Source: Halorhabdus rudnickae
GTDB taxonomy: Archaea > Halobacteriota > Halobacteria > Halobacteriales > Haloarculaceae
Direction of reading: 5' to 3'
Length of the DNA: 64,000 nt
NCBI RefSeq assembly: GCF_900880625.1
Contig: NZ_CAAHFB010000001.1
Span: 744,001 to 808,000 of the forward strand
The notes under the pieces are model-generated. The model worked only from the letters and a program-made list of their open reading frames with translations. It searched no databases and was not told the origin of the DNA. A program made the translations under genes and the position numbers. Shown here one piece after another: positions 27,610 through 58,328 of the stretch; positions within the stretch are counted from its first letter, which is position 1; each line of letters begins with the position of its first letter.

Positions 27610-28152
27610 TTAGTCACCCCACACGTCGTCGGCCTCGTCGGCGAGCTGGCGGCCGATGCACTCGATGTAGTCGTTCGCACTGGAGAGATCGGCGTGGCCC
27701 ATGGTCTGGCGGATGAATTGGGCGGTCGCACCGTTCCGGGCGATCAGCGTCCCGTAGGTGTGACGGAGGACGTGCGGTGTCACGCGCTTGCGGAGATCCG
27801 TTTGCTCGGCCACGCGCACGACGCGTTCGTAGATCGCCTTCCGGGTGACGCCGACCGCTTCGTTGCGTTTGAAGAACTCCCGCATCACCCGCAGCGTGTC
27901 GGGATCGCGGATCGGCACGGTCCGGGCGGCGTCGTCGGTCTTGGGCGTCCAGCCGTCGGCTTCGGCCGGCACCCGGAGGTGTTCGTGCTGCCAGTCGATC
28001 CACTCACTCCGTAGGTGAGCGAACTCGTCGGCCCGGAGGCCAGTGTGGGCGAGCGTCCGGACAGTAAACTCGTGGTCGAGGTCCATCCCGCTGGCTGCCT
28101 CGAGGAGGCGATCGAGTTCGTCGTCATCGAGGGGTTCGCGTTTCCAACTCAT
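27610..28152 (-). CDS. Stand-alone tyrosine recombinase (integrase catalytic domain)
   Basis: A 180-residue protein. The catalytic set is complete: Arg in HTGLRADEFAHL, Lys in TPKTDDAARTVPI, His-x-x-Arg in TPHVLRHTYGTL, His in MGHADLSSA and Tyr in NDYIE. It lacks the N-terminal core-binding (SAM-like) domain of most integrases. Minimal recombinases of this kind occur in haloarchaeal pleolipoviruses and plasmids. No tRNA target lies beside it, and I found no att repeat nearby. It is convergent with the toxin-antitoxin genes. Confidence 0.85.
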   Translation of the reverse strand: MSWKREPLDDDELDRLLEAASGMDLDHEFTVRTLAHTGLRADEFAHLRSEWIDWQHEHLRVPAEADGWTPKTDDAARTVPIRDPDTLRVMREFFKRNEAVGVTRKAIYERVVRVAEQTDLRKRVTPHVLRHTYGTLIARNGATAQFIRQTMGHADLSSANDYIECIGRQLADEADDVWGD

Positions 28153-57740: not shown

Positions 57741-57763
57741 GGAAACCTGAGTTACGATATGGT

Positions 57764-57838
57764 AGCGGGATGGGATAGCCAGGAGATTCCGGCGGGCTCA
57801 TAACCCGCAGATCGGTAGTTCAAATCTACCTCCCGCTA
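57764..57838 (+). tRNA. Initiator tRNA-Met (CAT)
   Basis: Seventy-five bases fold fully. The acceptor AGCGGGA (57764-57770) pairs with TCCCGCT (57831-57837), leaving A73 at 57838. The anticodon stem-loop CGGGCTCATAACCCG has anticodon CAT and the GGG:CCC pairs typical of initiators. The T-arm is GGTAG-TTCAAAT-CTACC. The A1:U72 pair and GGG:CCC stem identify the archaeal initiator and not the elongator. CCA is not encoded. TTTT follows at 57839-57842 and could end transcription. Confidence 0.96.
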
Positions 57839-58328
57839 TTTTCGCGACGAACAATGACGAGGAGCGAAACGACGAGTCCGTGAGTCGGGAAATATCTTGG
57901 AGTAGATTTGAACTCAGACAGTCGCAGCGCCGAATGAAATGAGGTGACCGTCTGTCCCCAGTTCAAATCTACCTCCCGCTATATTTTGTGGCGAGCAATC
58001 CGCGAGCCACAAATTCGTCTGTGGTAGTTTGAACGAGAGAAACGCTCGCGTTTCGCGTGGTTCAAATCTACCTCCCGCTATGTTCTGTCGCTCACAATAT
58101 CGTGGGCGACGAAATTGTCACAAGTATATTTGAATGACGGAACGAGCGATTGTCGGGAGCGATGTTCAGGTGGTTCAAATCTACCTCTCGCTACTTCTCA
58201 ACGAAACAAACGGCCCAGAGGTGTATCTCTGTGCCATACTCGTTGTGCTGTCGCTGTCGTAGATTTGAAGTAGACAACGAGAGAGCGAAGCGACCGACGT
58301 TGGCGTGGTTCAAATCTATCTCCCGCTA
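57818..58328 (+). repeat. Tandem array of structured units carrying tRNA 3'-end copies
   Basis: The tRNA 3' end (57818-57838: GTTCAAATCTACC then TCCCGCTA) recurs at 57961-57981 and 58060-58080 (exact), 58173-58193 (one change) and 58308-58328 (one change). The spacing is 143, 99, 113 and 135 bases. Between copies each unit has (a) a stem-loop: TTTCGC/GCGAAA 57840-57869, GTGGC/GCCAC 57988-58010, GTCGC/GCGAC 58087-58110, CAACGA/TCGTTG 58199-58245; (b) an anti-repeat complementary to the copy, e.g. TAGATTTGAACT 57903-57914; (c) in three of four a second stem: CAGAC/GTCTG, GAAACG/CGTTTC, CAACG/CGTTG. Stems differ in sequence but keep pairing. No reading frame explains it. Confidence 0.85.

Follow-up and report, generated by a model that had tools for sequence, protein, structure and literature searches.

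Hairpin repeat units behind the initiator tRNA gene of Halorhabdus rudnickae and at other haloarchaeal tRNA gene ends

Known systems closest to the array

In prokaryotes, few sites receive mobile DNA as commonly as the 3' ends of tRNA genes, and a partial tRNA next to such a gene is usually regarded as the scar of a prophage. Short intergenic hairpins composed of two modules are known from the REP, BIME and REPIN sequences with their RAYT (Y1) partners, which are maintained within lineages and are non-autonomous, while in integrons the folded single strand of an attC presents the site as a duplex with conserved unpaired bases. Partial 3' tRNA copies, some of them beside the full gene, have been counted in the haloarchaea Haloferax gibbonsii LR2-5 (PMC7921747) and Haloquadratum walsbyi (PMC3119063); the available text of both papers treats them as remnants or prophage ends only and describes no unit plan, anti-repeat, hairpins, covariation or class-wide family. 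Haloquadratum also carries the SMR-A/B elements of ~80-110 bp, which are non-coding and whose mover is unknown, and PATEs with near-terminal palindromes (PMC3119063). The SMRs possess terminal inverted repeats and target other mobile elements, and in the available text neither they nor the PATEs are described as linked to tRNAs or as containing tRNA ends (PMC3119063).

The array reported here lies in a stretch of 64,000 nt of the genome of H. rudnickae (the window), directly behind the gene for the initiator tRNA-Met(CAT) (iMet). It consists of four units of 99-143 nt in which hairpin 1 is followed by an anti-repeat complementary to the tRNA end, hairpin 2 and a copy of the last 21 nt of the tRNA. 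In the open PMC literature, outside which most subscription papers fall, we found only remarks on “partial tRNAs” and no description of this plan, in line with a sequence-only reading of the window that knew of no such system. The repeat family is apparently undescribed.

Like REP, BIME and REPIN sequences, the units are short two-module hairpins, but they are bound to tRNA ends, contain a copy of the host tRNA end and an anti-repeat, and do not follow the distribution of Y1 transposases. The Y1 transposase (PF01797) was rejected as the mover of the units: two unit-rich genomes (G136 and G224) have none, and 3-4 Y1_Tnp occur in three of the four unit-less genomes of genus g9. With integron attC arrays the units share, by analogy only, the direct tandem arrangement and an inverted repeat that yields a duplex site on one folded strand; unlike these, they are too short for genes, show no coding cassettes and offer one tRNA-specific site per tRNA. 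CIMEs and accreted integrative elements likewise consist of tandem segments between direct copies of a tRNA 3' end without an integrase of their own, whereas the units are mostly ~100-150 nt long with conserved hairpins, and the real integrase elements of this genome use other cores. CRISPR arrays also have locus-specific direct repeats that decay at the distal end, but here the intervening segments are structured and mutually related instead of being foreign spacers, a functional tRNA end forms the repeat, and the adjacent genes (upstream, those of a glycosyltransferase and a GtrA-type membrane protein; downstream and on the other strand, that of a phosphoribosyltransferase) are not cas genes, so that a CRISPR array was rejected. 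With regard to MITEs, the units are bounded by direct tRNA-end copies and no autonomous partner was found. Each of the known kinds tested fails a defining feature or stays open, which is not proof of a new mechanism.

Architecture and structural constraint

The repeated segment comprises the last 21 nt of the tRNA (57818-57838), from G53 at the T-loop to A73, and recurs at 57961-57981 and 58060-58080 (both exact) and at 58173-58193 and 58308-58328 (one mismatch each), with start-to-start spacings of 143, 99, 113 and 135 nt. The four recurrences at spacings of 99-143 nt claimed by the sequence-only reading thus stand; their exactness does not extend to the third and fourth copies. The features are as follows, all on the + strand:

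57764..57838: initiator tRNA-Met(CAT), host gene of the array (ARAGORN 57763-57839; Rfam RF00005)
57839..57981: unit 1, 143 nt, folding z -3.6
57840-57845 with 57864-57869: hairpin 1 of unit 1
57901-57913: anti-repeat of unit 1, AGTAGATTTGAAC
Between this anti-repeat and the exact copy at 57961-57981: hairpin 2 of unit 1, bearing the AGTCGCA..CGTCT motif
57982..58080: unit 2, 99 nt, folding z -4.0
57985-58013: hairpin 1 of unit 2, with tandem GA/GA
58023-58034: anti-repeat of unit 2, GGTAGTTTGAAC, followed by hairpin 2 and the exact copy at 58060-58080
58081..58193: unit 3, 113 nt, folding z -2.2
58087-58110: hairpin 1 of unit 3, GTCGCTCAC/GTGGGCGAC
58123-58135: anti-repeat of unit 3, AGTATATTTGAAT; copy with one mismatch at 58173-58193
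58194..58328: unit 4, 135 nt, folding z -0.45
58199-58245: hairpin 1 of unit 4, CAACGA/TCGTTG, with an inner hairpin
58258-58270: anti-repeat of unit 4, CGTAGATTTGAAG, followed by hairpin 2 and the copy with one mismatch at 58308-58328

A tandem array of tRNAs or pseudo-tRNAs was rejected: nothing but nt 53-73 is present in the copies, ARAGORN and Rfam each detect a single tRNA, and in Rfam 15 the tRNA itself is the only match above the gathering score between 57600 and 58600. It is also the sole tRNA in the window, including the surroundings of a tyrosine-recombinase gene (PF00589, E 6.9e-19) at 27664-28131 on the - strand, which possibly belongs to an integrated element.

The borders of the copies are sharp. 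In a profile over 88 copies at many tRNAs, the identity to the tRNA climbs at G53 from 0.58 to 0.98 and, beyond the discriminator (nt 73), is down from 0.99 to 0.47; the interior values of this profile are conditioned on detection, its edges are not. This bears out the claim that the iMet copies end at the discriminator and diverge thereafter. The base right after a copy is usually T, and directly after most tRNAs and copies there is a T-run that could end transcription.

The anti-repeats of iMet units 1-4 agree with the exact complement at 12, 8, 10 and 11 of 13 positions, respectively; with a one-base deletion allowed for, the value of unit 2 becomes 12 of 13. Across the family the anti-repeats, like the copies, are specific to the host tRNA. 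When they were located by a generic motif and only afterwards compared with the complement of the host's own tRNA, 2.80 of 5 positions matched in the T-stem part (1.90 when tRNAs were shuffled) and 7.75 of 9 in the T-loop part (7.37 when shuffled), with 0 of 20,000 shuffles as high; shuffling of whole tRNA groups gave 9.25, against 10.40 of 14 observed (0 of 10,000 as high). Odd T-loops are followed as well, the Lys-TTT core GTTCAATTCCC being accompanied by the anti-repeat GGGAATTGAA and the Asn core GTTCGAGTCCTGG by CCAGGACTCGA. In four of the seven Halorhabdus genomes the T-stem pair of iMet is GGTGG/CCACC and not GGTAG/CTACC; in these, nearly all copies read CCACC (one CCGCC) and the anti-repeats GTGGATTTGAA or close variants, while the remaining genomes keep CTACC and mostly GTAG. 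This matched change could be caused by pairing selection or by hairpin-templated correction. In the helix of anti-repeat and copy, G-T (62) is not clearly commoner than A-C (44), and this strand test is not decisive.

Folded as single strands, iMet units 1-4 have z values of -3.6, -4.0, -2.2 and -0.45 as RNA and of -2.5, -4.3, -1.9 and -1.3 as DNA. The stems named in the sequence-only reading are present, but folded one by one unit 3 is modest and unit 4 alone is not significant. For 80 units folded as RNA, the mean z is -3.8 for the tRNA-sense strand and -2.9 for the other, and the tRNA-sense strand is the more stable one in 60 of them. Among 22 iMet sequences of hairpin 1, 91.9% of the cells pair and 24 are double-change cells, against 8.4 in shuffles, so that the covariation of the stems exceeds that of shuffled sequence; the covariation score is 0.380, against 0.190 shuffled and 0.101 for the best slid control. 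U-G pairs are present in the sense strand of this stem, and a tandem GA/GA interruption occurs in 37 of 44 distinct hairpin-1 sequences that passed a filter demanding at least four of the five stem pairs. In one class of hairpin 2 with a fixed AGTCGCA...CGTCT, for which some sequences were picked by hand from genome-pattern results, both flanking pairs are intact in 57 of 58 cells, whereas shuffles give 27.5; C-G, G-C and A-T are used. Family-wide folding and covariation thus support the shared plan, the co-varying stems, the anti-repeats and the constraint as folded single strands that had been proposed from the one array.

Pure palindrome correction is argued against by the fixed mismatches that sit inside varying stems. 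Both hairpins have changed in a compensatory way around an invariant internal-loop motif, which points to a putative binding partner.

Distribution, turnover and integrated elements

Allowing up to 4 mismatches to the 21-nt end, 19 of the 42 tRNAs of this genome have their own end again within 1.3 kb downstream, against 0/42 upstream and 0/42 on the opposite strand, which excludes a chance origin of the copies. With the iMet array as query, blastn against the own genome gave matches on the downstream sides of other tRNAs, and units lie behind Lys-TTT, Thr-GGT, Gly-TCC, Gly-GCC, Arg-CCG, Val-TAC, Val-CAC, three serine tRNAs, two leucine tRNAs, Glu-TTC and Cys, among others. For the tRNAs listed in the genome, every unit bears the 3' end of its own host and never that of another; two other genomes have units as well, at 12 of 30 and at 13 of 31 of the tRNA loci sampled. 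The earlier account, which was tied to iMet, is therefore right in its plan but too narrow, since the family sits at many tRNAs.

The strict pattern GATTTGAA-N25-55-GTTCAAATC was found in 130 of 145 Halobacteria genomes (control 0), with up to 13 per strand count, so that the repeats sought in relatives are indeed widespread. Outside the class but within the same phylum (Halobacteriota), 2 of about 100 genomes match, at one place each, without unit motifs and in a chance-like manner. Arrays at iMet occur in Haloferax, Haloarcula, Halorientalis, Halovivax, Natrinema, Haloterrigena, Natrialba, Natronorubrum, Halalkalicoccus, Halomarina, Halapricum, Halorhabdus and others, those in Haloferax having been seen in three species other than H. 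volcanii, and the iMet units show deep similarity across genera. Of the genomes that lack the pattern, the four sampled from genus g9 and several others have an empty iMet site and the rest a decayed one; since the site is truly empty in several lineages, the units are dispensable. Judged from these sequences, the array is a member of a family of short, non-coding repeats that is specific to haloarchaea and confined to the 3' ends of tRNA genes.

Congeners differ in how many units they have, in the order of the units and in how modules are combined, and modules are exchanged. Four other Halorhabdus genomes contain close counterparts of the left module of the window's unit 4; unit 2 of H. salina shares this left module but differs in the right one, and other Halorhabdus genomes hold further combinations of left and right modules. 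In a comparison of three genomes, like left or right modules were found at different tRNAs, but no recent jump of a whole unit between tRNAs was seen, cross-tRNA pairs never being clearly alike in both modules; nor was a clean empty/filled allele pair found between the own genome and H. salina. Adjacent units in Halovivax and Haloarcula are near-identical, which indicates tandem duplication. Terminal copies are more decayed than internal ones; the apparent contrast between their T-part (mismatch 0.029) and their acceptor part (0.166) is biased by the detection of copies through their T-part.

Two other repeats were noticed at tRNA ends. A second hairpin type stands after tRNA-Ala-GGC (L023), Gly-CCC (L021), Gly-TCC (L025) and Arg-CCT (L030) and includes no more than roughly the final 13-14 nt of the tRNA (e.g., CTCGGCGACC..CGCAAATCC..GGATTTGCCCAGTCCCGCCGAGTCCA); the outer arms of this hairpin match the acceptor end, and it is possibly a sister family. 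The other repeat, CCACCTTTT...AAAA..CTGGACCAAAAA, begins right at a tRNA end or a unit copy in several genomes, i.e., after tRNA-Ile (L022), Pro-TGG and its unit (L071), Pro-GGG (L080) and Leu-TAG of genome G149 (L138) and inside the iMet array of G006 (L191), and looks unrelated to the units.

At tRNA-Arg(tcg) of this genome (G000:C1:378000-397900; L175), an integrated element of 18.8 kb is bounded by the 13-bp repeat CCCTCAGCGCCCG and carries a PF00589 integrase of 355 aa at its far end; its ends are without unit modules and the unit sits beyond attR. Elsewhere (G000:C6:208582-220737; L178), a two-unit Val array has a PF00589 integrase gene next to it and follows a partial tRNA-Val with a 34-nt identity. 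Here tRNA-Val(gac) and the matching partial tRNA with its array are on opposite strands, which suggests an inversion after integration. Because both elements lie between the tRNA and its older unit or array, and their ends lack modules, the units are not att remnants of these two elements. The units, INDEPENDENCE from the integrase elements, are most likely older than both insertions. The idea that the copies are serial attachment sites of tRNA integrases is thereby weakened for the two elements inspected, which use other cores (13 bp; 34-nt identity) and contain no modules. At tRNA-Arg(tcg) of H. salina (G002:C21:46500-48900; L176), an insert of ~0.9 kb between two units ends in the 13-bp repeat and represents a decayed element that apparently integrated at a copy and not at the tRNA; copies can therefore probably serve as landing sites, and a role as decoy attachment sites is possible.

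PF00589 genes are present in 6 of the 6 genomes examined, none of them linked to arrays. In a distant-similarity search of phage records the whole array had no match and one unit only short matches, and a scan of viral contigs for the exact iMet core found none. Seven plasmid records match, and in the four inspected no integrase is annotated within 6 kb of the match.

Possible origin and function of the units

It is quite possible, though less likely than not, that the units are non-autonomous tRNA-homing hairpin repeats, perhaps partly domesticated, which are handled as folded single strands by a putative recombinase. A trans-acting recombinase or nuclease would recognise the folded tRNA-sense strand, on which hairpin 2, closed by pairing of anti-repeat and copy, would present the tRNA end as a duplex. 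This enzyme would add, remove and exchange units at the tRNA end, always restoring the tRNA intact, and recombination between copies would generate arrays and homogenise the internal copies, leaving the last copy to decay. Single-stranded DNA rather than RNA would be the acting form. Homing is favoured by the strict linkage to tRNAs in one fixed orientation (19 of 42 downstream, none upstream or on the opposite strand), by borders that match an att-like identity block from the start of the T-loop to the discriminator, and by the same plan at many tRNAs, each with its own 3' end and with anti-repeats that follow the host. The class-wide spread combined with empty iMet sites, the variation between congeners in unit number, order and modules, the likeness of modules across tRNAs, the compensatory changes in hairpins 1 and 2, the greater stability of the sense strand and the stronger decay of terminal copies point the same way. 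It is disfavoured since no recombinase or transposase is linked to the units, the presence of Y1_Tnp does not track them, and neither a recent whole-unit jump nor a clean empty/filled allele pair was seen; the deep cross-genus similarity of the iMet units fits vertical inheritance equally well. We consider doubtful the further-reaching proposal that the tRNA 3' end is the homing address and the anti-repeat a built-in guide, with units being copied in, the tRNA restored, and copy and anti-repeat re-fitted when the tRNA changes.

The main rival, a strong one as orientation and sense-strand folding fit it equally well, although in our estimate still somewhat unlikely, holds that the units are RNA modules of the pre-tRNA trailer, co-transcribed with the tRNA and controlling folding, 3' processing or readthrough, in which the anti-repeat pairs with the tRNA's own T-arm or with the next copy as an antisense/anti-antisense pair. 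Units that are always downstream of and co-directional with the tRNA would be expected of such trailers, and so would the better folding of the sense strand, the U-G pairs in the stem of hairpin 1, the conserved internal loop of hairpin 2 and the joint change of T-stem, copies and anti-repeat in one Halorhabdus clade. However, more than half of the tRNAs and several lineages do without units, the T-run right after most tRNAs and copies could end transcription, two arrays have been severed from their tRNA by inserted DNA, and the proportion of G-T to A-C (62 to 44) in the helix of anti-repeat and copy is not clearly raised.

Neutral dynamics, in which the tRNA end multiplies through unequal recombination and correction templated by hairpins at replication perfects the inverted repeats and so mimics compensation without selection, are in our view an unlikely cause. 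They could produce the near-identical adjacent units of Halovivax and Haloarcula and homogeneous internal beside decayed terminal copies, and palindrome correction could explain why the anti-repeats track the copy; yet the non-pairing motifs (GA/GA in 37 of 44; the AGTCGCA..CGTCT loop) persist uncorrected, like modules occur at different tRNAs and in many genera, and the repeats are absent from the sampled relatives outside the class save for the two chance-like single matches. It seems very improbable that the units are remnant att sites which tRNA-targeting integrase elements (viruses, plasmids) left behind as they repeatedly integrated and decayed: the copies have the right polarity and extent for an integrase with crossover in the T-loop, one decayed element sits at a copy, and the available text of PMC3119063 and PMC7921747 reads partial tRNAs of haloarchaea in this way, but the two elements of this genome use other cores, have module-free examined ends and lie on the tRNA side of older units, the array as a whole is unmatched in phage records and the exact iMet core in viral contigs, and a conserved two-hairpin plan of ~100-150 nt is unexpected of decay.

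Many of the partial tRNAs of haloarchaea appear to be ordered, structurally constrained units that occur throughout the class, and repeats of a tRNA end alone are insufficient for calling integrated elements. A putative binder of the AGTCGCA..CGTCT hairpin and the possible gain and loss of units make the family a defined, testable object in organisms with good genetics. If tRNA homing guided by the anti-repeat were true, haloarchaea would possess a repeat system that is addressed to tRNAs and guided by base pairing.
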